Assembly: GCA_905221615.1 (NCBI GenBank)
Contig: CAJNDT010003435.1
Span: 484,875-548,874, forward strand
Direction of reading: 5' to 3'
Length of the DNA stretch: 64,000 nt
Origin: Symbiodinium sp. CCMP2592
Taxonomy: Eukaryota > Sar > Dinophyceae > Suessiales > Symbiodiniaceae
Every line of letters starts with the position of its first letter. Within the stretch, counting starts at the first letter, position 1. Positions 7,771 through 61,104 of the stretch are shown in pieces. A model generated the notes under the pieces. That model was not told the origin of the DNA. It saw only the letters and a list, made by a program, of their open reading frames with translations, and made no database searches. Both the position numbers and the translations under genes were made by a program.

Positions 7771-7870
7771 AACGGCCGGGCTAGGCGAAGAAACGGCTCC
7801 ACGGTGCCCAAAGCACCATGCGAGCGCAACCCCACGACCTTCAAGAGGTCCAAAAGGGGCGGGAGGGCGG

Positions 7871-12109: not shown

Positions 12110-12112
12110 TCA
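12104..12112 (-). promoter_or_regulatory. Predicted gag-pol stop-codon readthrough signal (element A)
   Basis: On the coding strand the gag frame ends GAA-TGA-CTA-GAG, and the very same frame stays open from the next codon to the end of pol (over 1,270 codons). UGA-CUA-G is the context known to give efficient stop readthrough in alphaviruses and some animal genes. The same TGA-CTA-G lies at the gag/pol boundary of element B. Readthrough is inferred, not shown. Confidence 0.8.
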
Positions 12113-13351: not shown

Positions 13352-13417
13352 GATGCGGGTATATCGCTTCACTCTACTCGAGCCCAGGAGCTGAGAAACC
13401 AGCGCTCGCTCGAGCAT

Positions 13418-13949
13418 TCTTGCAGTCGCTATCCGTGCACTCCTGGTCCATCAATTCTTTTCCAAGCAGCCCGCCCAATACGCCTGTGCGCGACATTGGC
13501 AGCGCCAGAAGACTCGAACCGGTGGCAGCCGCACTCCCAAGGTCCGGATCCCGACGTGGGGCCCACCCTCGGGCCCAGCAGCTTTGCCAAGAAAAAACTC
13601 ACCACAGCTTGCGTTTGGCCTGCACTCCCGCTAAAGTGAATCCATACGCAAGCTCCAGGCAATCACAAGAAAAACGGCACGACTTGCTAAAGGGCCCACG
13701 CCTCTGACGAGGCGACTCCCTTTGCACGCCCTCTGCCTTGGACACAGAAGCCCCAGGCCTGTGATGCGTCAGACATCAGATCCGCAGGGCAACTCCTGTC
13801 CATCGCATCAATCACCTCCTGTGCGAGCCTCCTCTCCAGTGGTCCTTCGACACTGAGAGCAGACCGAGGTGTCGAAACGTACAGTCGTGGGCCTGATGTG
13901 CAAAGGTCCGACCATACGACCACATTCGAGCACTCGCTCGTTGCCCTCC
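13418..13949. other. Spacer between YR and gag of element A
   Basis: The part from 13,808 to 13,955 encodes, one frame over, the missing tail of the recombinase: LECGR, then a run ending SVCSQC. This corresponds to LRCGK...MCQNCF in element B and LFSCGR...CRFCF in the relic at 49.3 kb. The rest (13,418-13,800) has no convincing gene. Confidence 0.6.
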
Positions 13950-16085: not shown

Positions 16086-16300
16086 GGTCGGGCAGGCAGA
16101 CACAAGAATGTCAGCAGTGGCACTGATACAATTGCACATAAGCCAAAGCAGAGCAAAAGGGCTTGTGGACGACCGTCACTGCACGAAGCATGAGCCTTGC
16201 AAGAACACAGAGTCCTGCAATTTCACGATGCACAGCAGACGTCTCAGGTGTGCGTCGACACAGCCCTACGGCGAGCAGCATGGCTGAAAATTGTGGAAAC

Positions 16301-16711
16301 TCAGCTGGCAGGGTCGATCCCTAAGAAGCGCTCAAGAGCGCCAACACGGCGCATGAGGCTTGTATGGAACCGAGGTCCCACAATGTGGCCAGTCGCATCC
16401 TCTAACATGTCGATTCTGCCACCAAGTGCCACACACGTAGACTCGAGGCTACGAAATCGTTTGGAAACAGAAAGAGCATCATCAGAAAAAGGAGCCTCAT
16501 GAGACAAAACAAGCTCCAAAGGCGTGAAAGCAAAAGCTCTGGTGGATGCATCAGCGCTGAATGGCCCACAGAGGGCACGCCGCTGGTTGGGAGTCAAAGA
16601 ATTGAAGACCTCCAACCACGGGCGCTCAACGCCTAAGTCGCCACTTGAGCTCCCCACGATGGAAATGTCCTCAGAGGAACCAGAGCGCTCCCACACCAAG
16701 CTAGTGGCCAA
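16301..16711 (-). CDS. Small ORF 3 of element A
   Basis: A 136-residue protein beginning MATSLVWERSG, with an acidic N-terminus and a C-terminal segment with heptad-like Leu/Val spacing (RFRSLESTCVALGGRIDMLEDA, then RRVGALERFLG). I recognise no family. It lies upstream of the recombinase, in the same orientation, between it and small ORFs 1 and 2. An overlapping frame at 16,899-16,633 (MATTSADLGG) is an alternative. It is probably an accessory protein of the element. Confidence 0.5.
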   Translation of the reverse strand: MATSLVWERSGSSEDISIVGSSSGDLGVERPWLEVFNSLTPNQRRALCGPFSADASTRAFAFTPLELVLSHEAPFSDDALSVSKRFRSLESTCVALGGRIDMLEDATGHIVGPRFHTSLMRRVGALERFLGIDPAS

Positions 16712-17103
16712 CTCTGCGTACGGTTCCTGACACCCATCATATCGCAGTCAAAGCGTGCTCGAGCATCGTGGTCAACAAGAGACCTGGTGCGATCAGCCTG
16801 AGGATGCAAAGCGGTATGCTTCCAGAGATTGGCCCGAGTCAGCTGACAAGAAGAATCAGCCACAGTAGCTCCACCGAGATCAGCAGAAGTGGTGGCCATT
16901 CTGATGTCGAAGGCACGAAGTGGCTTAGTGACTGCAAAAAAGGGCTCGAGAAAAAGAGCCAAATGTGAAGTTTTGCAAAGTCGGCATAAAGAGATCTGCA
17001 AAACTGGCCCTTCAATTTTAAGAAGTCGCAGCATTCTCAAGTCGACGTGTAAAGTCTGTGAGGCTTGACACTGTAATTGCCTAGCGACAGGGCAGAGCCG
17101 AGA

Positions 17104-17442
17104 TTATCGGTCTAGTCCTGCAAAGCAATTCCGAAGCGACCTAGCCAGCTCAGTGATACGGAGCTCCAGACTCGAGACTCGATCGGCAAGCCCGAAAAAG
17201 GCTCGAGAGATCCCTGTGATCTCGCGTTGAAGAGTTTCTCTGGGCACAGGATCAGCTGCAATCAGTCGTTGTTCCAGAACAGTCACACGCTGCTCTAACT
17301 CCCACACATGGTCAGAGAGCAGCAAGAAGGTATCATCAGTGCTAGCTCGCTCTGAAGACCCAGCAGCCGGCTCTTCATCAGGAGGCAGACTGCGAAGGTC
17401 AGCTCCGCGATCAGAAGAACTCTCAGGGGCAGACACATCCAT
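17104..17442 (-). CDS. Small coiled-coil ORF 2 of element A
   Basis: A 112-residue protein, MDVSAPESSSDRG at the start, with an acidic first 40 residues. A heptad-rich region follows (VWELEQRVTVLEQRLIAA and, later, ADRVSSLELRITELARSL), typical of a two-stranded coiled coil. The family is unknown. Its layout (acidic head, coiled tail) repeats that of small ORFs 1 and 3, suggesting an old duplication inside the element. Confidence 0.55.
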   Translation of the reverse strand: MDVSAPESSSDRGADLRSLPPDEEPAAGSSERASTDDTFLLLSDHVWELEQRVTVLEQRLIAADPVPRETLQREITGISRAFFGLADRVSSLELRITELARSLRNCFAGLDR

Positions 17443-17826
17443 TACCTAAGAAGGGAACGGACCTGTGCCGCTTACCGCAAAGACCCTCGTGACTTACAAG
17501 CTACACACTCAAAGCTTGGCATTCATGAGCGTGCACAGGAGTCAAAATGAGAGGTCGCTGGCACACTGCAAGCATTCACAATCTCGAAAGAAAGCACTCT
17601 GCAAAATGCGTTTTGCGCACAGTCTGAGCAATGCACGATCTCGCTGGGCATCGCCAGCTGCTACATCAGAGGTCTGCAAACGAGGCACCGGTACCAAGCA
17701 GGTGTCTATGCAAATGTCTGAGTCTCGCGCATTGAGGTTGCAAACTTGAAGCACAGGCTTGGAACGGCACGCAGACTCGAGCTAGGCACAGACAAAAGAA
17801 GCTGCAGAGTGCAGGGCCCATCGTTG

Positions 17827-18165
17827 TCAGTCAGATCGGTTGCGAACCTCCAGAGTGAGACAAGTTAAGGCATGACTCACTTCCGCCAGAGCATCTTGAG
17901 TGGCAGCCAACTCCCGGCGGAGCTCTGCATTCGCATCCTTGAGGGACTGCACTTGGAATTCCAAGGCAGCCACATCTTCAGACACGGAGTGGAACCTGCG
18001 AGACCACTCGACTTGAACCTTCTGCACATCAGCGACTGTGACCGCTTGTACGAGCACAGCATCACCAGTCGGCGCAGGATCCTCGACGAGGACCTCCTCT
18101 TGAGAAGACTCTGAAGCAGCGCGGGAAACAGCAGGCAACGATTCTTCGTCAGTGATCGCATCCAT
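17827..18165 (-). CDS. Small coiled-coil ORF 1 of element A
   Basis: I take the ATG at 18,165 (MDAITDEESLPA), because an upstream Met would draw its first residues from repeat A1 and a poly-G run. The protein has 112 residues: an acidic head, then VAALEFQVQSLKDANAELRR and a further heptad region, a clear coiled coil. It is the first gene behind A1, with about 80 bases of leader. No known family. Confidence 0.6.
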   Translation of the reverse strand: MDAITDEESLPAVSRAASESSQEEVLVEDPAPTGDAVLVQAVTVADVQKVQVEWSRRFHSVSEDVAALEFQVQSLKDANAELRRELAATQDALAEVSHALTCLTLEVRNRSD

Positions 18166-18225
18166 GCTGAGCACACAACACGAGCGGAAGCCAGTGCCGT
18201 TCCCCGAGGGTACTAAGCACCAGCG

Positions 18226-18237
18226 CCCCCCCCCCCC
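18226..18237 (-). other. Poly-G tract (12 G on the coding strand) next to A1
   Basis: Twelve uninterrupted C on the plus strand, just inside repeat A1 and upstream of small ORF 1. On the element RNA this is a G12 run in the leader. It could be functional (G-quadruplex or template switch) or a simple slippage tract. Confidence 0.6.
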
Positions 18238-18246
18238 GCTAGGCCC

Positions 18247-18470
18247 GCAAAAACTTCCCCCAGCGACGAGCCAGTGCTTCAGCGGCTCACAAATCAGAGG
18301 CAACTGCAAGCACTACTCTTACACATGTACTGTAAAATAAACGACATGTGAGAAAAGCGTGAAGTAGAAAAAGAGAAACTTTCGCAAGCACTATTTCAAA
18401 ACCAAATGGTTCTTGAAATTTTGTGTTTGGAAAAATAAGGTGATTGTCACCTCCGGTGAAATAGCACTTA
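18247..18470 (-). repeat. Split repeat A1 (5' terminus) of element A
   Basis: A copy of 7,871-8,094. Its outer end (gaaatagcactta) meets flanking DNA tttaagcccc. It carries the same GGTGA/TCACC palindrome (18,439-18,459) but lacks the second 14-bp arm, which in A2 is supplied by B1. Confidence 0.93.
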
Positions 18471-18543
18471 TTTAAGCCCCTAAATGGCCAAATGACCTCA
18501 CTTGCACACACAGCTTGAGCAACCAATTCTTTTGGCTCCTCCG

Positions 18544-20724
18544 TCAGCTGCTGCTGCTACTGCTACTGCTGCTGCTGCTGGCGCTGCCGTCACTTTGTGA
18601 CTGGCGCGCAAACACGACCTGTGCTCGCTTAGCCTTGACTTTTTTACGTGCTTGTTCCTTTTCGATGGCCAGAATCCTCTCCATCTCCGGTGTGTGCCGA
18701 AACGTAATGTCACTTGAACGGGCATGCCTTTGCTGCTCCAGGCGCCGACGCAGCAAATTCTCAGGCAGGCCTTCCTTTTCGGGCTCGTCCTTGCGATATG
18801 AGACCCGCCAAGCTTCAGCTGAATCTTTCACAATCAGAGAAGGTGCTCCGAGCTCTCGAGGCTTCTCGCGTGAAATGAAGCGGTCGCTGTACGTGTAGTC
18901 GTCCAGCAACACCGGGTAACGCTTATTCTTGGTCCTTCGGAAGCAAACAGAGTACGTGTACTCCACTTTCAAATCCATCGAACCTGCATCCAAGTAATTG
19001 AACTTTTTCGGTTTCGGAGGATGAAAGTGGACGATGTCATACTTGGGGCCTGCAGGTGGGGGGTCAGTTCGCATTGTGTGCGCGGCACCTTCTTGCAGAG
19101 CCTCAGTGAAGTGCTCCATCGTGGAAATGACTTTCCTGCTGGTAGCAGCCTCTAGCCATTTTCGCTGCAGGCCGAATTGTCCGTCATTCCTTCCTTTTCC
19201 ATGATGTTCGCCAAAAAAATTGAAGCTGATGGAACTCCAGCGGTGGGATTGCGCAAGCAACGGGACAGCTGTGGCCAAGAAGGCATATGCTCTGTAATGG
19301 GGTCCACAGTCAGTCCACACCATGATGTGTTCTATGCCTGTTAAGTCAGGCTTCAGGCGCTGAATGACGTCCTTCAATGCCTCAGACGCGTGCAAAGCTG
19401 TGTGGTCTAAGATCTGAGATACATAATGGAAGTATCGTTTATGGCTGGTTCCGGCTTGATCAAAGCGAGCATAGATGCCCAAGGTTGATATGCCCAATCT
19501 TGATGTAGCCCAAAACCAGGATTGCTCTTCGACAGGTCCCACAGGAATGGTGACGTTTTCAGCGTAATCGAGCTGAAGGAGCAAGGTTCCAGGGGACATC
19601 TCTACTTCCAGCTTCTCTCTGCAAGCGTGCTGGCGACGCACCGAGTGGAAGTGGTGCTCGCATCCTTCCAACGTTGCGAGTGTGCCTCTGAGGATCTTGA
19701 GTGCTTCCAGTTCCTTCTCTCTTAATTCATGCAACCGAATAAGATTCCCAGGCTCGCGAGAAGTTGGAGTCCGTTCTCGCTTGGCCATGTTCTTGTCAAT
19801 GTACTGAACCGCCCCCTTGACATACTGTGTGCTGCAAGTATCGTCCTGACAGACATTCCCGGAAACTGATGTGGTTCTAATGCTCAAAGCACCACTAATG
19901 TCAGCTAATTGCGGCCCAAGCGCTGGATCTGTCTTCCCGGAAGCCTTCATGCCAGCCCAGAAGCGGTCCAGGTTGTCGAAGTATGTGGGACTCTGGGAGC
20001 ACAGCAGGTTCCTGGTCTCATGAAGTTCGCGCTTCACACGCGGCACGGTCACAACATCGTACTTGTGGCATATTCCACAAACGTCCACTTTCTTCTTGTA
20101 CTTGACGTACTGCCGATGGTGCATTCGCAAGTGCCGTGTCCACGTTGACAAGGACATGAGTTTTTGCATCTCGGGGCTTAGCATCCACAACTTGCGTTTG
20201 GAGCGTTGCAGGGAGCGGCACTGTGTCATCTGGCCGGCAATCTTGATGTAATGCGAGTTGAGCGTAGAGTTCTGGTCGAGATACTTGCGTACTTCCATTT
20301 TCGTTTCGGCCTTATCCTTGATGTTGGGACGGCCTTTTTTGCTCCTGGGATTCTGATCTCGCCGTCGCCACACACGGCGTCCAAACGCGACGCCCAGAGC
20401 TCCTTCCGCAGCTTGCCTGCTACGGAACACCTTCTTGCTTGCTCGGGCAAGAACAGCTCGAGAACCCGTGGCCTCCTGCGAACTGCCCGCTGCCTCCAGT
20501 GCCAAAGCTTCTGCCACTGCAACCTTCGCCCGGTCCTCGCAGTCAACATCTGCACCCTCACACAGAAGACGCAAACCGCTTTTCTCGTCGTTGGACAACA
20601 CGGACCACAAAGTCTTTGCAACAAGCTGTGGCGAGCAGCGGCCGCGCAAGGTCACCAAGGCCTTACGCAAAACTGGCTTCTGTTTTGCGGCAACGCGCAG
20701 CTGGGGCGTTTTGATTATTGGCAT
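18544..20724 (-). CDS. DDE-type transposase-like protein
   Basis: A 726-residue protein. The N-terminus is basic, a short CGICH zinc-binding motif lies at 216-220, and an RNase-H-like catalytic region follows. Candidate acidic residues are D386 (LDYAEN), D472 (TDCGPHYR) and D514 in GEHHGKGRNDG. The combination of DYxEN, SDG/TDCGPxYK/R and HGKGxxDG is seen in a widespread group of uncharacterised transposase-derived proteins of animals and protists. The C-terminus is a Lys/Arg-rich helix followed by 12 serines encoded by an agc/agt run. It lies just outside element A, so A appears to have inserted next to its 3' end. I found no clear terminal inverted repeats; domestication is possible. Confidence 0.7.
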   Translation of the reverse strand: MPIIKTPQLRVAAKQKPVLRKALVTLRGRCSPQLVAKTLWSVLSNDEKSGLRLLCEGADVDCEDRAKVAVAEALALEAAGSSQEATGSRAVLARASKKVFRSRQAAEGALGVAFGRRVWRRRDQNPRSKKGRPNIKDKAETKMEVRKYLDQNSTLNSHYIKIAGQMTQCRSLQRSKRKLWMLSPEMQKLMSLSTWTRHLRMHHRQYVKYKKKVDVCGICHKYDVVTVPRVKRELHETRNLLCSQSPTYFDNLDRFWAGMKASGKTDPALGPQLADISGALSIRTTSVSGNVCQDDTCSTQYVKGAVQYIDKNMAKRERTPTSREPGNLIRLHELREKELEALKILRGTLATLEGCEHHFHSVRRQHACREKLEVEMSPGTLLLQLDYAENVTIPVGPVEEQSWFWATSRLGISTLGIYARFDQAGTSHKRYFHYVSQILDHTALHASEALKDVIQRLKPDLTGIEHIMVWTDCGPHYRAYAFLATAVPLLAQSHRWSSISFNFFGEHHGKGRNDGQFGLQRKWLEAATSRKVISTMEHFTEALQEGAAHTMRTDPPPAGPKYDIVHFHPPKPKKFNYLDAGSMDLKVEYTYSVCFRRTKNKRYPVLLDDYTYSDRFISREKPRELGAPSLIVKDSAEAWRVSYRKDEPEKEGLPENLLRRRLEQQRHARSSDITFRHTPEMERILAIEKEQARKKVKAKRAQVVFARQSQSDGSASSSSSSSSSSS
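18545..18592. repeat. CTG/CTA trinucleotide run encoding the poly-Ser tail
   Basis: Imperfect ctgctgctactgctactg repeats at the 3' end of the transposase gene, read as serine codons on the minus strand. Slippage here sets the length of the tail. Confidence 0.85.
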
Positions 20725-20889
20725 GGCGCCGGAACGGATGCGAGCTTAACCTTTCATGACTCCTGATATTTCCTATACAGAATTGTTCCACTCTGGTAGC
20801 CTTACTTAAGGAATGGATTGGCAAGTGGTGGGCTGAGCAACTTTGTGCCTTGTCGCGCCTATGTCGCGCCTTGTCGCTGACCTTGTCGC

Positions 20890-21862: not shown

Positions 21863-22032
21863 TTTTCATAATCGGATTTTCAAACATATGCAAAGGGAAA
21901 AAGGACTCAAAGTCTATTTGCAAATGAATCCAATCACAAGCAACATAAAATTCCAAGTAATCCGGCATAAGATGCATCGCACTGTCCTTCATTTTGCACG
22001 GGGCGAAACACGGTCTGGCGACCGCCCCCTTC
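21863..22032 (-). repeat. Split repeat B2 of element B
   Basis: 170 bp, matching 22,585-22,755 with one missing g and an a/g difference. It begins ttttcataatcggattttca on the plus strand and ends accgcccccttc. Confidence 0.93.
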
Positions 22033-22584: not shown

Positions 22585-22593
22585 TTTTCATAA
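22538..22593. promoter_or_regulatory. Putative recombinase site at the A2/B1 junction of element B
   Basis: Nested inverted repeats span the junction. The outer arms are ttatgaaaaagggatc (22,538-22,553) and gatccttttcataa (22,580-22,593), near-perfect complements. The inner arms are gcaga (22,554-22,558) and tctgc (22,572-22,576). The B1 repeat begins inside the right outer arm. The sequence is unrelated to the element A site but the geometry is the same. Confidence 0.62.
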
Positions 22594-22755
22594 TCGGATT
22601 TTCAAACATATGCAAAGGGAAAAAGGGACTCAAAGTCTATTTGCAAATGAATCCAATCACAAGCAACATAAGATTCCAAGTAATCCGGCATAAGATGCAT
22701 CGCACTGTCCTTCATTTTGCACGGGGCGAAACACGGTCTGGCGACCGCCCCCTTC
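22585..22755 (-). repeat. Split repeat B1 of element B
   Basis: The inner B copy. On the coding strand it starts GAAGGGGGCGG, and the preceding T makes the TGA that stops the RNase H frame, mirroring element A where B1 itself starts with the pol stop. Confidence 0.93.
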
Positions 22756-23359
22756 ACCCCTTCTTAGTAATCCCTGCGGGAGCCAGGAGGGCCTTAAGGT
22801 CACAACCCGACAAGGGGCACGAGGGACTAACCCTACGACACCCAGAATTAAGCAGATCAGCGAAGTCGCCACGCGACGGAGCATCCGCCACATTGCTCTG
22901 GCTGGCTACACGGGCGAACCAAGACCAAGAAGCACTGAGCTCTTCGGCCGCCTCGAAAGACAACAAGATGTCCCTGACATGATGATTTACAGAGGTGCCC
23001 TTGATAAAGGCGTCTTGCGCTGGCACATTGTCTATGTAGAAGATACATCTGTGTCCCGCGATGAATTGGTGCCAAGCCTTCCTCGCGACGGCAACAGCAT
23101 AGGCCTCAATGGGCCCGATGAAGTGACACATGGATTCAGCCCAACGCGAGACTAGGACATCAGGGACAGAGCAACCAAAGTAAGCGTGAACCTGATTCTG
23201 AATCATCAACACCCCGCCAACGGTGTGAGAGCTACCTTCGCTCGCTCCATCAGTGTAAATGTGCACAACATGATCGGCGACAGAGCAAGGGACATGGCGA
23301 GGCGTGCCACAACGAAGTCGTTTCAGCAACCGCTCAAGAGATCCGAACAAACTCATCAA
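22754..23359 (-). CDS. RNase H domain of element B pol (frameshifted)
   Basis: The frame holds an RNase H of the DIRS type: VVHIYTDGASEG (first Asp), EAYAVAVA (Glu), CIFYIDNVPAQ (Asp) and ASQSNVADAPSRG (last Asp). It overlaps the end of the RT frame by 26 bases and lies one base ahead of it. In elements A and C the RT and RNase H share a frame, so a single-base indel near 23,340 is the simplest explanation. Confidence 0.8.
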   Translation of the reverse strand: MMSLFGSLERLLKRLRCGTPRHVPCSVADHVVHIYTDGASEGSSHTVGGVLMIQNQVHAYFGCSVPDVLVSRWAESMCHFIGPIEAYAVAVARKAWHQFIAGHRCIFYIDNVPAQDAFIKGTSVNHHVRDILLSFEAAEELSASWSWFARVASQSNVADAPSRGDFADLLNSGCRRVSPSCPLSGCDLKALLAPAGITKKG

Positions 23360-26300
23360 GCTTCAACTCAGGTCCAGAATGCGACTTTGCCCACGACCTG
23401 ACCTCGGCCATGAAGAGCCGTCCAGCCTTGCCAAGGATGTACGAGTCGGTGTAATGCAAGCGACCCATTAAGCTAAGATACCGCTTCCGAGAAATCAAAC
23501 CTTCCTCAAGGACTTCGTCAAGAGAGGCAATGAGCTCTTCGGCCCGGCCAGGCTTGTTCCGGACTAGGACCAGGCCTTCGGAAAAGCGAGAGCAATCAAC
23601 CTCGACTCCAAGCATCGTGGCTTGGGCCTTAAAGGGGGAAAGCTTATCAGAGGCGAACCTAAACCCCAACAGGTTACACAGGGCAATCATGGTCTCCATG
23701 GTGTTGTCAGCAATGCCACTAGGAGACATGACAGGGAAGTCATCGTAAAAGTTGCACCAAGGCACACACAACTCCACGCCGATGCGCCAGAATAGGCGCG
23801 CAAGGCGATTGAAGTGAAGCACCGAAGCGGAACTCCCGAAAGGTAGGGCCTTCGACTCAAAGAGTCCAGGCTCAGCAGTCGAAGGGTCAAGCAATGCGAT
23901 TATTGCCAGGGCCCGCGACTTCGCAGAAACCGCAAATTGCTTATAAGCCGCTCGGAGGTCCAAGGTAGTGAGGAGAGGCTCGCACCCCACCTTCTTCCAG
24001 CCGTCATGCCGACGACCACTCAAGGATTCACCAGTTGAGAGAGGGATTGTGAAATCGGGCGGCCCGTTCAGAACCCGAATCCACAACCTGCTGATCCCAA
24101 TCAACTCGTCAAGCGCGTTAAGATCAAGCTTATCCATCGAGCCGAAAGCCAAATTGACCTTGTTCTCAGTGAAATCATCAACAGGTCTAAGTTTACGGCC
24201 GGCGGAGGAAGTCTGTTCAACGCCGAACCGGCGAGTAGGGAGCCAGCACGGCCCGTGTCGAGACAACAACTCCTCAGCAGAAAGCGGTCCCTCAAGAATG
24301 CCATCAGCCACCTCATCAAGAGTCTTGTCCCACAGCTCGCGAGCATTCGCATCGGATGCAGAAGCACGAATCTTTCCAAGTAAAGCGGGCTGCAGAAACT
24401 GTGCGGCACTAATGAAATCACTTTCAGCCAACTTAGGCGGCCTGGGCTCGTGAGCGAAAACTCCAGTGTGTTCATGATGGCCCACCAAGTCAAAACCATT
24501 GCGCAGTTCATCGAAAACCTTCATGTCAACCCAACCAAGGGAGCCGGCAATACGCTCCAGAAGCTTTAGCCTTTTTCCTTGCAAAACCTTGGCGACCTGA
24601 GGATCAAGCGCCTCCTTCAAAGCACGTTCCTCGCCTTCGAGGTCGGAGGCCCAGGACGTCCACTTCCTGAGTAGGGCCGCCCTCCGTTGCACAACCCAGG
24701 TCGGGCCATTGACCAACATGTCAAAAATGCATTGTTTGAGACGATCAGGAGCGGCATGCAGGTGATCGAAAGGATGAGTAACCTTTCTGCACCCATCAAG
24801 AAATTCATCGGGAGAGGCGTACACACCAAGGCGAACCTCAAAAGCTCTCGCATCGCAAGTAGGCTCCAAGGTCCGCGCACAGGAGGCATCGCTGTCAGAA
24901 CCGTGCACGGATTCGCAACTGCTGGCATCACTGCTAGAACTATCCGAGTGCACAACCTCATCCCGGGAAAACTTCAACGAAGACCCAGAACCACCCCCGC
25001 TTAGCAGTAAAGAGGTCGAAGAGAGAAGTTTGGACCCAGAAGGAGCATCGCGGAGGGGTTGCAAAATGCACCGCTTGGAATCAACAGGCGGCAGAGCATG
25101 AACTTGGTAGACAAGCACACGCTTGAACTCAGGCATAACAGGAGGCAGTTTACGCCCGCGAGGTTGCCGAGCAGAAGAAGTGGCAGCAGCGGCAGGCGTG
25201 GCCGCAGTAGGATGCACAGGCAAGGGACGACCCAAGTGCCTAAAGACCAACGCCACGAACTGTTGGCAAAAGGGCCTGGGGTAGGCTGCCTCCTGCGCGG
25301 TAGGAAAAGACATCGTGCCATCAGCGCGGCGCTGTGGCTTCCACGGAAGGTGGTCGTGCCCACCCGGACAGCGCTGGCGAAAATGTTCGATGGCATCACA
25401 AGAAGTAAGCAGCGTACGGTGAGTCAATCGTGCACCACCATAGCAACACATGTCGAAATTGACCCTCGGAAAATTCTTTACCAAATGAGCAAAACAGGGC
25501 AGCTGCCAAAGCATGCTTGACTCAGGATTCTCAACTGTCCATGGGATGTTGGACCTGCAAAGCAAATCAAGAAACTGGGCAAGGCCGACGTAAATTTTGT
25601 TTGCAGCCTTGACCTTGTCAAGGTTGACACCAGTCAGCGAAGGCAAACCCATGGGATGCTCAGGAGAGCGAAGCGGGGCCACGGACACCCCTTTTCGCTT
25701 GATGTTGCGCGCTGCGGAGCACGTGCCACAAGGCGGGGCAGCGTGCACGAAGAGTATAGGATGATCACGCACCAAATTGCGCAAGAAGACCCAAGTGGAC
25801 TCCTCGGTCAAGCTGAGATTGCAGACCTGCGCCAACGGATGATGGCGGTTGTGCTGGTGATCAATGGGCATGACAGGCACACCCGCTTCACGAAAGCAGC
25901 GAGAAAGCATGGCGCTGCCGGCACATAGCTCAAGAAAAAGTGGTTCTTTGGGAACCAACGCCGCGGTAACAGCCTTGGTTGCTGAAGCACTCGACAGCAG
26001 AGGGAAACGCGGCGGCCACGGCAGGCGAGCAGGCAGCTGTGGGTTCTCACGGAAGTGCTCGACCTCTGGCTCAGTTGGCAAGGCAAAATCAAGTGAAATC
26101 AAGCGTTGCGAAGCCTCGAGAGACAACTTATCAAAGGCCGAAATAGAGAAAGCAACCAAAATGACCCTCCTGCCCTGCCACGAATCAGTGAGGTGCATTT
26201 GCCTGCGTGCATCAAACAGGACAGGGCCATCTGACACAGGCAATGCCACCCCTTGAAGGGTCGCACCATCAACAGTCCGAGTGTGGGGACCCTTGCTGGA

Positions 26301-26795
26301 TTGCACCCAAATTGAACCTTTAGTAAAACTGGACAAGGGAATGGCCAAATTAGGCAAGAAGGAATTCTGCTGATCGCGATGCGGGGCCGTGCGAACACCA
26401 TCAAAAAGCACGACGGTTGTGAACTTGTGGGCAGGAGCAGACTGCCTTACAAAAGCAGCCAGCACCTGCGTGGACTTTGGAAAAACAACGACATTGCTCC
26501 TAAGGCCCACCTTGACCTTGGCAAAGGCCCCAGTGGTAAATGAAATGCCGCCACCGGAGCCGCGTTGCGGCGCAGCCTTCGGGAGGCAATCGAAAAGCTT
26601 CAAAACATCAGCCTGTTCAATCCACTTCCCAATCAGACTTGAAGCGAATTCTTCAGCGGAAGGCAACCCATTTGGACCTGCATGCAAAACTTCCCCTTCA
26701 GGGACACTGCATTCAGAAGAAGAGCGCACGAGTGGCTCACCGCTCGGCGCAGCATCTTTCTCGTCAGTCGTTTGGTCCATGGATTGCACACCTAG
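23334..26795 (-). CDS. Pol of element B: 2OG-dioxygenase-like / C5-MTase / RT
   Basis: This continues the gag frame past a UGA; residues are counted from a GTG two codons into it (26,789), and an ATG lies three codons later (26,780). Residues 80-230 are a 2OG/Fe(II) dioxygenase-like domain with PHRDQQN (H137, D139), distal H199 and R207/R208. Residues 280-520 are a C5-cytosine-methyltransferase-like domain: SAM motif LFLELCAGS (284-292), catalytic PPCGT (C354), ENP (420-422) and CYGG (449-452). A Ser/Asp-rich linker and the motif FLDGCRKVTHP follow. RT runs from about 745 to 1,140, with D944 (LDLRAAYKQF) and FYDDF (D1016, D1017). Dioxygenase before methyltransferase is the reverse of elements A and C. 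The active-site motifs look intact here. Confidence 0.87.
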   Translation of the reverse strand, partial: LGVQSMDQTTDEKDAAPSGEPLVRSSSECSVPEGEVLHAGPNGLPSAEEFASSLIGKWIEQADVLKLFDCLPKAAPQRGSGGGISFTTGAFAKVKVGLRSNVVVFPKSTQVLAAFVRQSAPAHKFTTVVLFDGVRTAPHRDQQNSFLPNLAIPLSSFTKGSIWVQSSKGPHTRTVDGATLQGVALPVSDGPVLFDARRQMHLTDSWQGRRVILVAFSISAFDKLSLEASQRLISLDFALPTEPEVEHFRENPQLPARLPWPPRFPLLSSASATKAVTAALVPKEPLFLELCAGSAMLSRCFREAGVPVMPIDHQHNRHHPLAQVCNLSLTEESTWVFLRNLVRDHPILFVHAAPPCGTCSAARNIKRKGVSVAPLRSPEHPMGLPSLTGVNLDKVKAANKIYVGLAQFLDLLCRSNIPWTVENPESSMLWQLPCFAHLVKNFPRVNFDMCCYGGARLTHRTLLTSCDAIEHFRQRCPGGHDHLPWKPQRRADGTMSFPTAQEAAYPRPFCQQFVALVFRHLGRPLPVHPTAATPAAAATSSARQPRGRKLPPVMPEFKRVLVYQVHALPPVDSKRCILQPLRDAPSGSKLLSSTSLLLSGGGSGSSLKFSRDEVVHSDSSSSDASSCESVHGSDSDASCARTLEPTCDARAFEVRLGVYASPDEFLDGCRKVTHPFDHLHAAPDRLKQCIFDMLVNGPTWVVQRRAALLRKWTSWASDLEGEERALKEALDPQVAKVLQGKRLKLLERIAGSLGWVDMKVFDELRNGFDLVGHHEHTGVFAHEPRPPKLAESDFISAAQFLQPALLGKIRASASDANARELWDKTLDEVADGILEGPLSAEELLSRHGPCWLPTRRFGVEQTSSAGRKLRPVDDFTENKVNLAFGSMDKLDLNALDELIGISRLWIRVLNGPPDFTIPLSTGESLSGRRHDGWKKVGCEPLLTTLDLRAAYKQFAVSAKSRALAIIALLDPSTAEPGLFESKALPFGSSASVLHFNRLARLFWRIGVELCVPWCNFYDDFPVMSPSGIADNTMETMIALCNLLGFRFASDKLSPFKAQATMLGVEVDCSRFSEGLVLVRNKPGRAEELIASLDEVLEEGLISRKRYLSLMGRLHYTDSYILGKAGRLFMAEVRSWAKSHSGPELKLDEFVRIS

Positions 26796-26798
26796 TCA
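26790..26798 (-). promoter_or_regulatory. Predicted gag-pol stop-codon readthrough signal (element B)
   Basis: On the coding strand gag ends GAG-TGA-CTA-GGT, and the frame continues open into pol. TGA-CTA-G is identical to the boundary in element A although the surrounding proteins have diverged widely, which points to selection on the recoding context. An ATG six codons downstream leaves reinitiation as an alternative. Confidence 0.78.
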
Positions 26799-27992
26799 CT
26801 CCTTCTTGCGTTTGGGACACGCCGTGTATCCATGATCTCTCTTCAAACATCCTTTGATGCAGCAGACATGGAGTCCTCGCTCGCACTTCCCATTGGATAC
26901 AGCTCTCTGGCAACGGCCTAAGTTAAAGTCGAAACAGATTGGCAATCCGCGAGTCGTGGATGGAACTCCGTCTGCAAGCTCAGCGGGCATACGGACATTG
27001 TTCTTGCTCTTTCCTTTACCCTTGCCTTTCCCCTTGCCTTTCCAGGGCCTGCGGTCATCGTACGGGCCAGGCCTGAAAGGAGCCGGAGGGGCTGCGACCA
27101 AAGGCTGCAAAAGGTGTGTTACATTATTGCAATTCATTGCCTCGCTCCAAATCTTATCAACAGGCTTGCCGTCAGAAACAAGTTGGATTCCATGCCGAGT
27201 GCGATCAGCTGCTTCAACAAACAGCTGCCGATCAGCCTGCATAAGCTGCTGCAGCGTCACACGTGCATAGTTATCAGGTGGATCCCTGAAACGCGCGGTA
27301 AAAAGTGCTTCCAACCACCGCTCGTGCTCCGAAAAGGTGACAATCCCTGCCTGGTCTAGGGCCAAACCTCGACGGGTCAATGCCAGCTTGAGGAGAAGGT
27401 CTGAGGACACATCAGCATCAACCTTTGCAACCTGGGTGCGTAGAGACACATGACCGGCACCATCAACGGACAACATCTTATCATCGCGATCCTTCTTGAA
27501 CTTGACCTCATCATCACGGCAAGGGCACGACTGAGGCGGTAAGTAATGAAGCACGTTATCCTCATACATCTGAACGCACTTATCGATCACGGCATGACCC
27601 GGAAGAGTCGGGCCGTGGATCGTCAAACCACTCAGCCGAACCTGCTGTCGCTGCAACCGGTCGGCCCGGTCGGGCGCTGCGAGCTTTCTCGGAGCAGAGT
27701 CATCAGTCCTTTCAACCTGTGATTGCAATTCAGACACAGTTAGGTTGTAGCTCTCATGCAGCAAGCGGCGAAGCACACTGAGCTCCGCAATCGAAGGGTC
27801 ACGCCCAAGCACTTTGACGATGGCAGCAGTGAATGGGCTCTCATCCGTGCTCCCGGGCACGTATGAGCTCAAGAAAGCATACTTGCTCATGCAATCAATG
27901 CCAGCGTCAACGAACTTCACCAGCACTGGATCCTCCAAACCAAGAGCCTTCGCCCTCGAAGAGAAGTTCGCCTTGCTCTCTGTGACGGCCAT
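26796..27992 (-). CDS. Gag-like nucleocapsid protein of element B
   Basis: The start is taken at the ATG at 27,992 (MAVTESKANF), matching the start of the element A homologue. It has the same segment order: RADRLQRQQVRLSGL, LALTRRGLALDQ and DPPDNYARV. A GKGKGKGKS-type basic linker comes next, then a C-terminal Cys/His cluster with CFDFNLGRC, GLHVCC and KRDHGYTACP. Presumed to bind element RNA. It ends at UGA with pol following in frame. Confidence 0.8.
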   Translation of the reverse strand: MAVTESKANFSSRAKALGLEDPVLVKFVDAGIDCMSKYAFLSSYVPGSTDESPFTAAIVKVLGRDPSIAELSVLRRLLHESYNLTVSELQSQVERTDDSAPRKLAAPDRADRLQRQQVRLSGLTIHGPTLPGHAVIDKCVQMYEDNVLHYLPPQSCPCRDDEVKFKKDRDDKMLSVDGAGHVSLRTQVAKVDADVSSDLLLKLALTRRGLALDQAGIVTFSEHERWLEALFTARFRDPPDNYARVTLQQLMQADRQLFVEAADRTRHGIQLVSDGKPVDKIWSEAMNCNNVTHLLQPLVAAPPAPFRPGPYDDRRPWKGKGKGKGKGKSKNNVRMPAELADGVPSTTRGLPICFDFNLGRCQRAVSNGKCERGLHVCCIKGCLKRDHGYTACPKRKKE

Positions 27993-28109
27993 GGCACAAA
28001 AACCTGTCAAGGCACTATGGGTCTCCAGCCAAAGTGCACACTCACCGCAAACGTCAATTGCACTTGCAAACCGCTGACTGTCGGACACAAGTTCAGCACG
28101 AACACACAT

Positions 28110-28435
28110 ACTTGACGGCGCCCGGCAAGTATTTCACACGACACTCGTGTTCAGCATGTTCTAAAAACTCGCATGACACCGGACAAGTAAGTCGGTGCCA
28201 CATCAAAACCAGGCCAGTGCCCGAAATTCGTACATGTGCCACCGCGTGGACCGGTGGCATCACGCACTCACGCACATCGTGAAACCCGCAAGGGTCAGAC
28301 AATTGAGCCGAGTGGGTCCAGCTCATCCAATTCCAAGCCGCGAAGTCCGGCAAACCACAAGTGCGCAAGCACATCAAACCATCACCGAGTGAGTCCGGTG
28401 AGCACCGCGTGTACCGGCTTCCACAAGTGCGCACA
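28110..28435. other. Spacer between YR and gag of element B
   Basis: 326 bases with no coding signal I trust. It corresponds in position to the 13.4-13.8 kb spacer of element A, but the sequences do not resemble each other by eye. Confidence 0.5.
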
Positions 28436-29112
28436 TCACGTGAAACAGTTTTGGCACATGTCTGCCATAAACCTAGGCCTCTCAGCAAGACGCTCGAACT
28501 TCTTTGAGCACCTCTTCCCACAGCGAAGCCGATTCCCGCCCTCATCAGCGAGACGGTGAAGCTTGCGGGAAGTAATGTGCCTGATGTACACATGGGCATC
28601 AGGGTCTCCCACAGCTAACTCGGCCCAAGGCGGTATGATCTCATCAGCCGCAGCCTCTTCAGCACGAAGGTCCTGAACGTTGTCCTCTTCGTCCAATGAC
28701 GCCTCCGAGGCCGACGGTTCATCATTGAACTCCGGACCTGGTTCGCGCTCAGGATCAGTTGGGAAATAGCCCGAACGCGTGGTGTCCGGGAGGAACTTGC
28801 CGATCCTTATATCGGCGAGCACGTACTCAAGAGACCTCAGAGCAGGCGCAACATTGTCACGCCCATAGATGTGCATCATCTCATCCTGCGGAGCCTTGTG
28901 ATATCCCAAAATCCTCCGGTGCAGCGCGTCAACACCATACTTTGACATCCAAGACAAAGTCGTAGCCTTACAGCTGTGAGTACCAAGCTTTGAGGCTTCA
29001 GGGAAACCTCTGGCAGACAAAATCCCGCGCAACCAACCAGCTGCTACAGTGGCCGTGGGCGGAACACCCGACCATCCGCCCTCCTGACCACGGCTGGGCA
29101 GGAGAGGAAAAT
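28436..29112 (-). pseudogene. Tyrosine recombinase of element B, N-terminally truncated
   Basis: Only the C-terminal part remains. An ATG at 29,032 opens 198 codons, and homology continues in frame up to about 29,110. Visible are THSCKATTLSWMSKYG (catalytic His and the following Lys), ILGYHKAP (second His) and HIYGRD (Tyr nucleophile). The tail contains LRCGK and ends MCQNCF. The Arg and first Lys positions are lost beyond the truncation point. Confidence 0.82.
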
Positions 29113-29402
29113 CTTATTTTCACTGGAAATGTTAAAAGCTCGAAACATAACCCCCGGGTGGGTGGGTGGGAGTTTTGAAAATCGCGTGCCCTACCTCAGA
29201 GCACGAACCTTGCGGCATCACATCGACTTGCTTCAAACAATCATGTCTGATGCTTTCAAGTGGCAAGGTAAAACTTAAATCGAGCAGGATTTTGAAGCGA
29301 AGCTACAAAATCCAAAAACCATTTCCGTGAAAATAATACCGTACGCAGGCCGGCTGCGAAGGTGGCTTATTTTCACTGGAAATGTTAAAAGCTCGAAACA
29401 TA
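29113..29402 (-). repeat. 37-bp direct repeat pair at the 3' edge of element C
   Basis: The string beginning cttattttcactggaaatg occurs at 29,113-29,149 and 29,366-29,402. The left copy starts exactly where element B's recombinase homology ends. By analogy these may be short B2 and B1 repeats of element C with an A2 block between them, or the ends of an unrelated insertion. The 254 bases from 29,403 to the stop of the C RT frame show no gene. Confidence 0.55.
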
Positions 29403-29656: not shown

Positions 29657-31192
29657 TCACTTGAAGACCAAAGGGAGAGCACGAGCGAGTAAAGCAGCTG
29701 ATAATTCGGTCCTGGGCACACCTGAGATCTGTTGTCCTCTGGACGGATTGTCCGCTGGGTTCGACAGCGATGGTACACGATCCAGCCAGCAAATTACTTC
29801 AAGATCCTCTTCACTGCAAGCGAAGAAGTCGATTAACGATGCGCAGACCGAATTGTCACTGTGTCCTCGAACAAAGCTTCCAAACACACCTTCGTTGTCA
29901 GTGAAAGCCACCACGCCTTTGCGCCCTACGAGCGGCCTGAAAACTTCCAAGGAAATGGCCAGAGCAAGCGCCTCAAGTTCGAAGATTACGGTTTCCTTTT
30001 CACGCTCCCCATCCTTGAGCAGCCTGTCCACATGACACTGTTGAAGCTTGTATCCAAACCAACTCAAGGCGGCTCCAGATGAGTTGAAAATCAATCCTCC
30101 TAACCCGCAGTAGCCACCGGGCTCGAAGGATGCATCCACGTAGATGTGCACATATTCATCCCTCCTAGCACGCACTGGCCTTGGCCTCGAAGTTTCAAGA
30201 AACTGCTTAAGCTGAGTTAACCCAAGACGGGCAAGAGGGCTGAGCTCCCACTTGCGTTGTCGAGAGTGCTGTCCTAAGAGCTTAAGCGCTGCCTTTGGGC
30301 GACGGCCGAAAACCTGGGAGCTTGCAAACTGAAGCCGACCACGTAGCTTCTCACATTCGCTAGGGTCGAGCTGGCCCGAAGCAAGGGCGCGATCGATATC
30401 CTTTAAGGCCTCCGACCGTCGCTTGGTAGTGTTTTCAAGGAAGATGAGACCAAGCTTAGCGTCTCTAAGAATGATCTGGACCCCAAGGACCACACACATG
30501 GAACTGTAACTCAGTTCCTTGTCCCGGGATACTTCCCAGCCGATCAACTTGAAAAACATCGTGATCACGAAATCACAATGCTTAGCGAAGGCTGCCCCAC
30601 AAACGTTCAAGTAGTCGTCGAAATACTCACTCCAAGCGAGCGTGAGGGCTACAGCCCCAAGCTTCCAAATCGCGTATGCTGCCCTGATGAAGCTGGTGAC
30701 GCTGGCGGTTGATCCGAACGGAAGAACTCGCTGTTTGTAGACCTCACCTTCGCCCCGCTCGACATTGAACAAGATGAAGTAGCTATCAAGCTCGTACGAA
30801 GAGTCGGATAGCGGGAGTTGTTTATAAGCGGTACGCAGATCCCATGCCTTGCACACAGGTGCCGCATGCTCGGAGCGACCACTACGGAACCACTCATTTA
30901 ACCAACACCCTAACATGCCAGCGACGATGTCAATCGTGTGGACACTTATCTGCTCAGTTTGCGAAACGGCAGAATTCACCTGCGACGACAGATAATTGTC
31001 GATAGGCCTAATCTTGGGCCCATCCTCGGATTCCCCTTGGCGCACACCAAACCTGTGCGTGAGCGATGCATTGGAGGGAACGTCACTCAAAGCAACGGGT
31101 CCTTCCACGAACCCTCGCTCAAGTTCTTTCTGAGTGGCCTTCAGGACCCCTTGGTCAATCACGGGATCGTCGGAGGCCTTGACAGTAGCCAC
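29657..31192 (-). CDS. RT-RNase H of element C
   Basis: 511 residues. The RT core has RPIDNYLSS (51-70), AWDLRTAYKQL (D118), VLPFGSTASV and YFDDY (190-194). The RNase H tail has HIYVDASFEPGG, ELEALALA, VAFTDNEGV and SLSNPADNPSRG, i.e. all four acidic positions are present. The start codon is arbitrary: the domain is really the continuation of the upstream frame, which overlaps by 34 bases in another phase, so a frameshift has split the polyprotein. Confidence 0.83.
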   Translation of the reverse strand: MATVKASDDPVIDQGVLKATQKELERGFVEGPVALSDVPSNASLTHRFGVRQGESEDGPKIRPIDNYLSSQVNSAVSQTEQISVHTIDIVAGMLGCWLNEWFRSGRSEHAAPVCKAWDLRTAYKQLPLSDSSYELDSYFILFNVERGEGEVYKQRVLPFGSTASVTSFIRAAYAIWKLGAVALTLAWSEYFDDYLNVCGAAFAKHCDFVITMFFKLIGWEVSRDKELSYSSMCVVLGVQIILRDAKLGLIFLENTTKRRSEALKDIDRALASGQLDPSECEKLRGRLQFASSQVFGRRPKAALKLLGQHSRQRKWELSPLARLGLTQLKQFLETSRPRPVRARRDEYVHIYVDASFEPGGYCGLGGLIFNSSGAALSWFGYKLQQCHVDRLLKDGEREKETVIFELEALALAISLEVFRPLVGRKGVVAFTDNEGVFGSFVRGHSDNSVCASLIDFFACSEEDLEVICWLDRVPSLSNPADNPSRGQQISGVPRTELSAALLARALPLVFK

Positions 31193-33354
31193 CAGCCGTC
31201 TCGCAACCGTTTGGCCCCAGACCTCAGTTGGTCCTCGGACTGCTCCGCTGGTTTGAACCTCCGGGTGAAGACATTGGACAAGGGCAGCTTACCAGTCAAA
31301 TCAGACCCCTTAAGGATGTCATCCACAAGCGTGACGTCCTCATGCTGAACCTCATTCAGGAGGGCTCGGAACAAAGCCAAACGCTTGGTCGAAAGAACTT
31401 CCTTCCGGAACTCAGGCAAATCAGCTTTCAAGGCCTTCTCAACTGGCTCAAGCTCGGACGCAAGAGCAATCCACCTACGAAGAGTTTCGGTCCTTTCCAA
31501 TGCAACGTTCGCCTCGCCTTGGCGATGGATTTTCTGAACAGCAGCCCTGATCTCGTGCGGGAGAAGAGAGGCCAGCTGAGTAGGATGGCCGATGAGCGCA
31601 GCTTGTTCAACGAACTGCTCAGGAGTCCGGTACACACCAATGACAGCCTTGGTAAGCCCATCACAAGACTCGGACGTGGCCGCTTTGGAGCGATCTAAGA
31701 CGAACCCTAAACCCTCCAGGAGCTTGACATGTTCAGACTTCAAGTTCTCCGGTCCTCGAGGCATGTATGCAACGATCACGTCTCTCCGGCCGTTCCAAGG
31801 CATTGTAGCGTGCAACCTCCTACCGTCAAACCGAAAGCCCTCCGGTGTTACAGGCAAACAAACCCCTTTGATCGACCGGCCACGGAACTCATGCTCAACA
31901 TCCCCATCTGGGTCTTCCATCCACAAGGATCCCCTCTCGAAGTCCGAAAGGGCTGCCAGTGCATTGTCCGTAAAGGACTCGTTGTTGGCATCTCTATGGG
32001 GCAAGGCGGCTAAGTCCCTGAACAGACCCACAGTGCCAAAAACCAATCCAGGAAAGAGGCCTCTTACATACGAGCACATAGCTTTGACCGACTCGGGATA
32101 TTGCTTGGTCACAGAGCGGACTCCATTCAGAGGTCCATGCACAAAGCTGCCGGCTTGGAATGACTTCGCTCCCGAGTCTCCCTCCCACCTCAAGGATTCT
32201 GATGGAAGCAAGTCAAGCAGCAGACACAGGTCCTTGCGATGAACACGATGTCCCTCGTTTATCAATCTTGCCACACTCTCAGCACAGCCGGACTTCATAG
32301 CTTCCCGAACTTTGGGCGCATCGGGATCTAAACCAAAGCGGCTGTGCGGATTGACACTGGAATCGTGCTGCCGCCTCTTTTTCGAGGTCCCAGAAGGCGG
32401 GGTAGGGCCTAAACCCAAACTAGGGGGGGCCCCGAGCTCAACCATACTAGCGGGCTTAGCGTCCTCCTCACACCCCTTGGGCAACACATGGGCGCGAAGA
32501 ACGCGGCTGCCGGCAGGAAATTTTTGCAGCGCTGGAGTGCAAGCAACTTGGGTGCCGGGGCACCAATCCGAGGCAAGCTTGTGGCCGGGACGAAGAAAGG
32601 AATTTGCGAGCCTGGAGGGCAAAACAACAGAATGCACGGAAGCAAATTCGCTGAGCAGCGGGGGCACCCGCTTGCGAGATTGGATACCTGTGAATGCTCG
32701 CGAAGCTTGCACTGCATTGGTTGTACCAGTAATGTCAGACGGGGGCGCAGCACACCCGAGAGTCAGGAAGTGCTCCTTGAGCAAACTGGCCATAAGCTTG
32801 CAGAGGCCCCACGGATAGGCAGTCTCACTTGCTGTGGCCCATTTGGGCCCGACCTTCCCCCAGCCCAAATGGACATGCTTTCCAGAACAAGTTCGCTGGA
32901 GCTCACGGAATTTGGGAACATTGTGCACAAGAAGTGTTTCTTTACGACGCATGCCACCATACTCACAGTGATGAAAAATAGTTTGGAAAATATCCCGTCG
33001 TTGAAGAAAGTGCTTCCAGTCTGGCAGGAGCCAGAGGTAACTCCGAGCGGGATTCTCACAAGAAAAATGTTTTCCATGCTCAACGCAAAAGATGCACAAC
33101 TCGAGGGTAAGGCGGTACAACTCGTTTGCCTTGGTCACCCTGATGGCGTCGAGGCCTTCAAGACCATCCACACCTTCCGGGCACAACTCGCTTCGGAGAA
33201 AACCAACACGGGGCTTGAGCACCAGCTGCTGCAGCTCCCGATTCACAGTTCCAACATACTCTGCAAGCTTTGCGACAATGAACATGCAGGCTTGCAAGCA
33301 TGAAAGCTGTGCTGGCACAAACGACATGATCCCAAAAAGACGTGGCAGCATCAC
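31159..33354 (-). CDS. MTase-like and 2OG-dioxygenase-like part of element C pol
   Basis: 731 residues. The first 200 resemble the C-terminal half of the methyltransferase domain (FSCENPARSYLW at 97-108, CEYGGMRRKET), but no PPC motif or SAM loop is visible. Residues 395-545 are the dioxygenase-like domain with PHRDANN (H453, D455), distal H515 and R523/R524. The linker motif FVEQAALIGHP follows, as in element A. The frame ends near the start of the RT. Probably a dead copy, useful as a third comparison for the dioxygenase motif. Confidence 0.78.
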   Translation of the reverse strand: MMLPRLFGIMSFVPAQLSCLQACMFIVAKLAEYVGTVNRELQQLVLKPRVGFLRSELCPEGVDGLEGLDAIRVTKANELYRLTLELCIFCVEHGKHFSCENPARSYLWLLPDWKHFLQRRDIFQTIFHHCEYGGMRRKETLLVHNVPKFRELQRTCSGKHVHLGWGKVGPKWATASETAYPWGLCKLMASLLKEHFLTLGCAAPPSDITGTTNAVQASRAFTGIQSRKRVPPLLSEFASVHSVVLPSRLANSFLRPGHKLASDWCPGTQVACTPALQKFPAGSRVLRAHVLPKGCEEDAKPASMVELGAPPSLGLGPTPPSGTSKKRRQHDSSVNPHSRFGLDPDAPKVREAMKSGCAESVARLINEGHRVHRKDLCLLLDLLPSESLRWEGDSGAKSFQAGSFVHGPLNGVRSVTKQYPESVKAMCSYVRGLFPGLVFGTVGLFRDLAALPHRDANNESFTDNALAALSDFERGSLWMEDPDGDVEHEFRGRSIKGVCLPVTPEGFRFDGRRLHATMPWNGRRDVIVAYMPRGPENLKSEHVKLLEGLGFVLDRSKAATSESCDGLTKAVIGVYRTPEQFVEQAALIGHPTQLASLLPHEIRAAVQKIHRQGEANVALERTETLRRWIALASELEPVEKALKADLPEFRKEVLSTKRLALFRALLNEVQHEDVTLVDDILKGSDLTGKLPLSNVFTRRFKPAEQSEDQLRSGAKRLRDGWWLLSRPPTIP

Positions 33355-33769
33355 CTGCAGGTAAAGCAGTCGTGCTGTCTGTGCTGGCAGACACGGTCCA
33401 CCTGCATTTTGAAAGGCTTTCTCAAACGTGGACCGTCTATGCTTGAGAACTTCAGGGAGCTATTAGGGGATGTCTGAAGCATGCTCTCTAGGACCGAGTT
33501 GCATGGTTAGCATATCAAGAGGCAAGGTCCCAGCCTGCAAGTCTTCAAGGTCTCTTCGTTCGTGGCCTTGGCATGTGGTTCTTAGCAGCCCTAGCAAGCG
33601 ACCGGATTGCCGGACTGATTGAGGCGATTGCCCACTTCCGTTCAGCACCCACCTTGCCAGACCTCACTGAGAAAAACGCCAGAAAGAAACTCGATCACAG
33701 AAAGTTGGGCTCATGAAGAAGCAGAAACGAACTTTTGTGCTCGTGGCTCTGGTCGTGACAGGTCGCAGC
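33355..33769. other. Gene-free stretch right of element C
   Basis: Short overlapping frames only. One (to 33,394) is an alternative phase of the methyltransferase-like region. No gene is supported. Confidence 0.45.
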
Positions 33770-38678: not shown

Positions 38679-38900
38679 CTTTAAGGAGTGTCACTGCCAA
38701 TGTGTTTCTTCGCTTCTTCCTGCCTGCATGCGACGTGCACTGAAGAAAGCTGCTGGGCATTGGCTGATGCTGATAGACATGCTCATGGCGATGCTCGTGT
38801 TCACGGTCATGGTGATGGTCAGGGCGGTGTTCAAGGTCATGATGTTGATGGATGACAAGGATGGTGATGACGAGGATGACGATGGTGATCGTGATGATGA

Positions 38901-61100: not shown

Positions 61101-61104
61101 TATG

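Follow-up and report, generated by a model that had tools for sequence, protein, structure and literature searches.

SymbioDIRS-Dnmt3, a DIRS-like element of Symbiodinium, has A-B-A-B repeats and a methyltransferase in its Pol, and occurs with two domain orders (PMC5890265). The elements analyzed here resemble it in all these respects; they differ in that its methyltransferase is a PF00145/Dnmt3 enzyme, whereas those here are unmatched by PF00145, and its main text nowhere mentions a dioxygenase by that word (PMC5890265). Mobile elements bearing a TET/JBP-type oxygenase are known from fungi; unlike ours, those covered in the accessible part of the source are DNA transposons and Helitrons (PMC12730594). 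Orchid Gypsy elements also carry a retrotransposon-borne 2OG oxygenase, and theirs acts on nucleic acid; it is, however, of the AlkB type and lies in a separate ORF of plant LTR elements, with no methyltransferase mentioned in the available part of the report (PMC9289625). In dinoflagellates, replacement of 12–68% of thymine by 5-hydroxymethyluracil has been reported, and in Breviolum certain repeats are enriched in this base (partial text of PMC11071213).

Here, we analyzed a 64,000-nt stretch of Symbiodinium DNA (the window) containing elements A, B, and C. We consider it fairly probable that element B represents one copy, now damaged, of a DIRS-like retrotransposon present in many copies, and that the Pol of this retrotransposon includes an Fe(II)/2-oxoglutarate dioxygenase of TET/JBP-like character, for which we propose base-methyl oxidation. 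If so, this would be, so far as the literature searched shows, the first TET/JBP-like dioxygenase reported in retrotransposons, and the capture of DNA-modifying enzymes by mobile elements would extend from writers to oxidizers, within one polyprotein. The pairing of a dioxygenase with a methyltransferase appears to be new and may bear on the marking of the unusual DNA of these algae; the enzymes would also provide expressible candidates for dinoflagellate base oxidation.

Organization of elements A, B, and C

Coordinates are positions in the whole window, all features lie on the minus strand, and pol residues are counted from stop to stop. The pol ORF of element B spans 23334–26795 (1153 aa); the preliminary description gave the same ORF with its end at 26789, two codons in, hence 2 must be added to its residue numbers to reach those used here. 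The analysis confirms a 2OG/Fe(II) dioxygenase, a methyltransferase-like domain, and a reverse transcriptase in this one ORF. The TET/JBP-like dioxygenase domain occupies 26073–26615 (residues 61–241; by profile range, conservation, model, and fold), and the methyltransferase-like domain 25245–25952 (residues 282–517; by motifs and profile range, with no C5 profile match). The reverse transcriptase core (23598–23987) matches RVT_1 with E 9.8e-6 and 25.8 bits, under the cut-off of 29.6. The motifs described earlier are read directly in pol: PHRDQQN (138–144), LELCAGS (288), PPCGT (354), and ENPESS (422); the second His (201) and the Arg (210) are taken from the alignment.

The window copy of element B is damaged, its RNase H part (22754–23362; tblastn of P0005 and P0008) being in a frame other than that of pol. 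Among the host-genome matches listed, 8 of 11 full-length copies have an open frame of 1334–1394 aa with no internal stop. Element B also has a gag-like ORF of 445 aa (26796–28133; from the ORF list, matching P0006 and P0007), a truncated tyrosine-recombinase-like ORF (28436–29113; tblastn to the element A ORF, E 2.7e-17), and two copies of repeat B (22585–22755 and 21863–22032, 98.8% identity).

Pol of element A (8282–12109, 1275 aa; by ORF, alignment, and profile) has the order methyltransferase, oxygenase, reverse transcriptase, RNase H. Its oxygenase domain (10307–10840, profile range) carries PHRDVNN, and its methyltransferase-like domain (11351–12007, alignment and profile range) has lost its sites, namely motifs I, IV, and VI. 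The element further contains a gag-like ORF of 446 aa (12110–13450; ORF, tblastn), a tyrosine-recombinase-like ORF of 741 aa (13950–16175; ORF), repeat A1 (18247–18471), identical to A2 (7871–8095) at 225 of 225 bases, and repeat B1 (8092–8284), with 99.0% identity to B2 (7578–7770). The tyrosine-recombinase-like ORFs of elements A and B have no Pfam match; we recognized in them what we take to be recombinase-like catalytic motifs. In element C, the oxygenase domain (31690–32256, PHRDANN) lies downstream of a partial methyltransferase in the ORF 31159–33459, coverage being absent at methyltransferase motifs I and IV, and the reverse transcriptase and RNase H (29657–31288) are in a frame different from that of the oxygenase ORF. 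The domain order varies between the pols compared.

These elements are DIRS-like by their split direct repeats, the A-coding-B-A-B arrangement being present in element A and the B pair only in element B. Both the reverse transcriptase and the RNase H of DIRS-like elements are found, the former by the sub-cut-off RVT_1 match, the latter by homology only.

Active-site conservation and the methyltransferase-like domain

Conservation and dN/dS in element B were assessed on 15 of the 51 genome matches. Residues H139, D141, N144, H201, R210, C356, and E422 are unchanged in all 15 host-genome copies, and dN/dS is 0.13. The metal triad and the distal Arg are kept in 20 of 20 loci of family E, a family of homologous elements in the same genome (20 of 93 Tet_JBP matches; 16 once identical rows are removed), and in 7 of the 8 elements compared. 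In the alignment of 12 diverse homologs, full invariance is confined to five columns (H, D, G, G, and R), and the triad and the Arg are kept throughout, one second His excepted. P0018, with an intact-looking pol, has lost both sites, including the metal Asp of the oxygenase. P0007 (in which the motif region is missing), P0018, and P0019 were left out of some oxygenase alignments, and P0014 and P0019 (pattern not found) out of the reverse transcriptase tree.

Since the seven residues named above are invariant in the 15 copies, and the H, D, G, G, and R columns in the 12 homologs, the oxygenase and methyltransferase motifs are not due to chance. The predicted fold, active-site conservation, and purifying selection support assignment of the domain to the 2OG/Fe(II) dioxygenases and bear out that part of the preliminary description. 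The Arg proposed there, R207, corresponds to R209 here and varies (D, S, or Q in relatives); the conserved residue is R210. In TET2, the Asn following HxD contacts the base; no such role is claimed for N144.

Motif I, PPC with the catalytic Cys, and EN(P) are read in the right order in the window copy and in families B and E. This order fits the C5-methyltransferase proposed earlier, which we take these motifs to signify; however, PF00145 and C5 profiles do not match the methyltransferase-like domains scanned (window, family E, and others), and the C5 type is unproven. The methyltransferase Cys is lost and the oxygenase site kept in families A, D, and F; family D has Tyr at the catalytic Cys position, with dN/dS of 0.10.

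We propose that the oxygenase would oxidize a base methyl group on nucleic acid held by Pol, whether element cDNA or the DNA where copies of the element reside. The first choice of substrate would be host-laid 5-methylcytosine, the second thymine, yielding 5-hydroxymethyluracil; the effect may be altered host silencing or recognition of new copies. In families with the Cys, the methyltransferase probably marks a base; where the Cys is lost, it would be a non-methylating domain.

The preliminary description joined the two domains into a pair that writes and oxidizes a mark. In a strict form, the cDNA would receive 5mC from the methyltransferase, and the oxygenase of the same polyprotein would convert this 5mC to a self-mark, e.g., 5hmC. 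Such a cassette is consistent with families B and E, where both sites are intact and under selection; however, an obligatory pair is disfavored because families A, D, and F have retained the oxygenase after loss of the Cys, and the missing C5 profile match also argues against it. We hence regard it as unlikely. If base-methyl oxidation is right, the Cys-less families directly pose the question of whose mark is oxidized.

Fold, possible TET/JBP kinship, and distribution of the oxygenase

The structure prediction suggested earlier recovers the 2OG-oxygenase fold, a double-stranded beta-helix, with pLDDT 90. NgTet1 and TET2 are among the best solved structural neighbors of the model, and identity to the solved structures of NgTet1, human TET2, and CcTet is 11–17% over the aligned part. 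In the fold ranking, TET rows are tied with AlkB, FTO, and prolyl-hydroxylase (PHD) rows; a Burkholderia oxygenase occupies the top VIA row, and MncA, a cupin outside the 2OG oxygenases, is one of the 50 Foldseek matches listed. The predicted fold alone does not tell TET from AlkB or prolyl hydroxylases. PDB sequence searches with the oxygenase and methyltransferase profiles gave nothing meaningful.

Pol of family E matches Pfam Tet_JBP with E 7.6e-6 and 25.7 bits, other oxygenase families being absent at E<=1; the highest Tet_JBP score in the host genome is 29.6 bits, below the curated cut-off of 34.9 bits. The window, D, and F pols have no Tet_JBP match at E<=1; in the window group, 2 of 10 members match, at E 0.062; hand-made group sequences do not match, and the N-terminal half of the profile (before about position 73) is unmatched. 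NCBIfam and PHROGs gave chance-level matches only, phage records none, and viral contigs 13 pattern matches with no relatives among them. Because the fold is undiscriminating and the family E match is below the curated cut-off, the sequence comparison supports a TET/JBP-like oxygenase, not a formal member of the family; the closeness to TET proteins noted earlier gains support through family E, the window copy itself having no Tet_JBP match.

An AlkB/FTO-like demethylase, taking N-methyl groups off the RNA or cDNA of the element, would have a parallel in orchid Gypsy elements, whose AlkB domain removes m6A methyl groups, but is unlikely, as Pfam scans give Tet_JBP and nothing of AlkB type, both for A6 members (E<=10) and for family E (E<=1). 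A protein hydroxylase (prolyl-hydroxylase or 2OG-FeII_Oxy_3 type) with Gag, Pol, or a chromatin protein of the host as its substrate is improbable given the fusion to a reverse transcriptase and a methyltransferase-like domain and the Tet_JBP match of family E. A non-catalytic DSBH domain retained for nucleic-acid binding or structure, for which the selected Tyr-bearing methyltransferase of family D is a precedent and P0018 an example of a lost metal Asp, is very improbable in view of the triad and Arg kept in the 15 copies, the 20 loci, and, one second His excepted, the 12 diverse members.

A wider version of the base-oxidation reading, in which DIRS-like and copia-like elements of dinoflagellates would spread TET/JBP-like dioxygenases that hydroxylate thymine in DNA and are a source of the abundant 5-hydroxymethyluracil, amounting to mobile-element-driven genome-wide base substitution, is quite unlikely. 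Of 13 matches in frames above 2500 aa, 2 were examined. A stretch of the copia-like L047 (GGPPRHG...LEHPA) was considered as a methyltransferase and rejected, since the DIRS methyltransferase profile gives –4.8 bits. Several families of DIRS-like elements, as well as two copia-like polyproteins, are shown to contain homologous oxygenase domains; if the assignment is right, TET/JBP-like dioxygenases occur in two unrelated retrotransposon orders.

Oxygenase domain of Pol

The pol of element B (23334–26795, minus strand; 1153 aa, residues numbered from stop to stop) contains, together with RT, an oxygenase that is real and conserved. Residues H139, D141, N144, H201, and R210 are unchanged in all 15 genome copies that were compared, and the same five are kept in 7 of 8 elements, the exception being P0018, where D and N are lost; this relative has a 1236-aa open pol with neither the oxygenase metal Asp nor the methyltransferase Cys. 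The site Arg named in the preliminary description, R207 (R209 here), is variable, the conserved Arg being R210. An alignment of 12 diverse members, an Amphidinium transcript included, leaves just H, D, G, G, and R without any variation; one member has Arg in place of the second His. A 268-aa distant relative from Amphidinium carterae (P0051, EukProt), weakly similar to 2OG-FeII_Oxy_3 (E 0.087), is possibly a stand-alone host relative.

Pooled pairwise dN/dS values, which are descriptive because pairs share history, are for B (15 copies) 0.133 in the oxygenase, 0.110 in the methyltransferase, 0.187 in the linker, and 0.084 in RT. Of the further DIRS-like families of the host genome with a homologous oxygenase, D (five loci) shows 0.124, 0.100, and 0.062 for oxygenase, methyltransferase, and RT, respectively; F (two rows, few changes), 0.184, 0.137, and 0.061; and E (16 distinct rows), 0.142 for oxygenase, 0.097 for methyltransferase, and 0.479 for linker. 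The dioxygenase proposed earlier as part of the retroelement, located in Pol, is upheld by its conserved site and purifying selection.

No report of a dioxygenase in a dinoflagellate retrotransposon was found in the open-licence literature; most subscription papers lie outside it, and absence there is not proof. Orchid Gypsy elements have an active AlkB domain (PMC9289625). Retrotransposons with DNA-modifying enzymes are already known as a kind; the variant new here has a TET/JBP-like oxygenase.

Probable kinship with TET/JBP through family E

Within the window group, 2 of 10 members have a weak match to Tet_JBP (PF12851; best E 0.062), and P0023 has one at E 0.13. A six-frame PF12851 search of the host genome (1.098 Gb; E ≤ 1) yielded 93 matches, the best at 2.2e-4 and 29.6 bits, none above the 34.9-bit cut-off; 14 control genomes gave one match (E. 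coli), also below it. The best 20 of the 93 loci are related to one another and make up family E; all 20 carry HRDTHN and HATLPWSGRR. L043, a complete pol of family E with 1283 aa, hits Tet_JBP at E 7.6e-6; the match covers positions 73–162 of the 164 in the profile, leaving the initial part unmatched, and no other oxygenase family in Pfam is hit at E ≤ 1. For the pols L010 (family D) and L015 (family F), Tet_JBP gives no match at E ≤ 1. The window-group oxygenase profile, in turn, picks up all 20 of the family E loci (4.5e-41 to 7.5e-54). Since family E is matched from both sides, the profiles argue for a kinship of the window oxygenase with TET/JBP via this intermediate, not from the window sequence alone. 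The earlier assignment to TET/JBP-like dioxygenases therefore stands as a likeness through family E, but the Pfam cut-off is missed, and hence the oxygenase is not filed as a formal TET/JBP member. The likeliest reading of its predicted activity is that of a TET/JBP-like enzyme.

Thirteen of the 93 matches lie in open frames >2500 aa. Two of these polyproteins, L047 and L048 (C282 and C317 of the host genome), were fetched; they score 80.7 and 80.0 bits, respectively, with the window-group profile, against at most 2.6 bits for 200 shuffled versions of L047. L047 (2889 aa as cut) matches RVT_2 (E 1e-17), a Ty1/copia marker, and Tet_JBP (E 6.5e-4), and by the former match is copia-like, which puts the oxygenase into another order of retrotransposons besides the DIRS-like one. 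L048 has 2769 aa; both are very long polyproteins sharing the same oxygenase. L047 also has a candidate, unconfirmed methyltransferase-like stretch.

Methyltransferase-like domain and putative substrates

Motifs I (LELCAGS), IV (APPCGT), and VI (VENP) of B follow one another as in C5-methyltransferases. This order agrees with the C5-methyltransferase described initially, but the DNA_methylase profile does not match the domain; Methyltransf_25 matches weakly (E 0.18–0.19). The Cys is present in B, P0005, P0013, P0016, and 20 of 20 family E loci, and absent from A, P0008, and P0018. Family D (L010–L014) has PPYAT in 5 of 5 loci, Tyr replacing the catalytic Cys, and L015 and L016 have LPYAT. As dN/dS of this Cys-less domain in family D is still 0.10, indicating purifying selection, it is retained for some purpose; candidate readings are a pseudo-enzyme retained for another task, or different chemistry.

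Despite Cys loss, A, P0008, L010, L014, L015, and L016 each have a complete oxygenase site. Three families keep this site without the Cys, so a methyl mark set by the element itself is probably not the sole substrate. The Pol oxygenase would have nucleic acid as its target, either while reverse transcription proceeds or afterwards, candidate substrates being host CG methylation or thymine; we rank the putative substrates as 5mC first, thymine second, and N-methyl bases or RNA third. CG methylation in Symbiodinium has been called ubiquitous (PMC5890265), and in Breviolum certain repeats are reported to be enriched in 5-hydroxymethyluracil (PMC11071213).

Element structure, history, and neighbours

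The nearest named proteins come from Symbiodinium natans, Symbiodinium sp. CCMP2456, and Symbiodinium sp. CCMP2592, hence the host is a Symbiodinium-like dinoflagellate. The minus strand carries three related elements, of which A (7578–18471) is complete, whereas the copies B and C are damaged. In B, a truncated recombinase-like ORF (28436–29113) is followed by a gag-like ORF (26796–28133), pol, and, in a different frame, an RNase H part (22754–23362), all minus; its B repeat pair is present (98.8%). Recombinase-like ORFs are assigned by motifs only, and that of A had no match in a Pfam scan. The ORFs of A are open (741, 446, and 1275 aa) and its layout is A, ORFs, B, A, B; repeats A1 and A2 are equal at 225/225 bases, and B1 shares 99.0% of 193 bases with B2, this near-identity implying recent insertion. 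The same arrangement, and likewise two domain orders, are reported for SymbioDIRS-Dnmt3 (PMC5890265).

The domain order is oxygenase, methyltransferase, RT in B, D, E, and F, and methyltransferase, oxygenase, RT in A and C-type elements. A tree of RT (9 rows) and one of the oxygenase (17 rows) each split B-type from C-type elements; A, a long branch, changes sides between the two trees. These elements seem to have carried the oxygenase for a long time.

Directly upstream of A is a 733-aa ORF with no Pfam match (18544–20745, minus), and broken matches to the recombinase-like ORF of A in two frames (48167–49041, plus) mark another decayed element. An ORF at 37083–38690 (minus) weakly matches CxC5, the cysteine cluster of that name linked to KDZ transposases (E 0.0066, below cut-off). 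A 690-aa ORF with Kelch repeats (54451–56523, plus; E 1.2e-62) is likely a host gene, and a long simple-repeat tract at 61085–62364 keeps several frames open.
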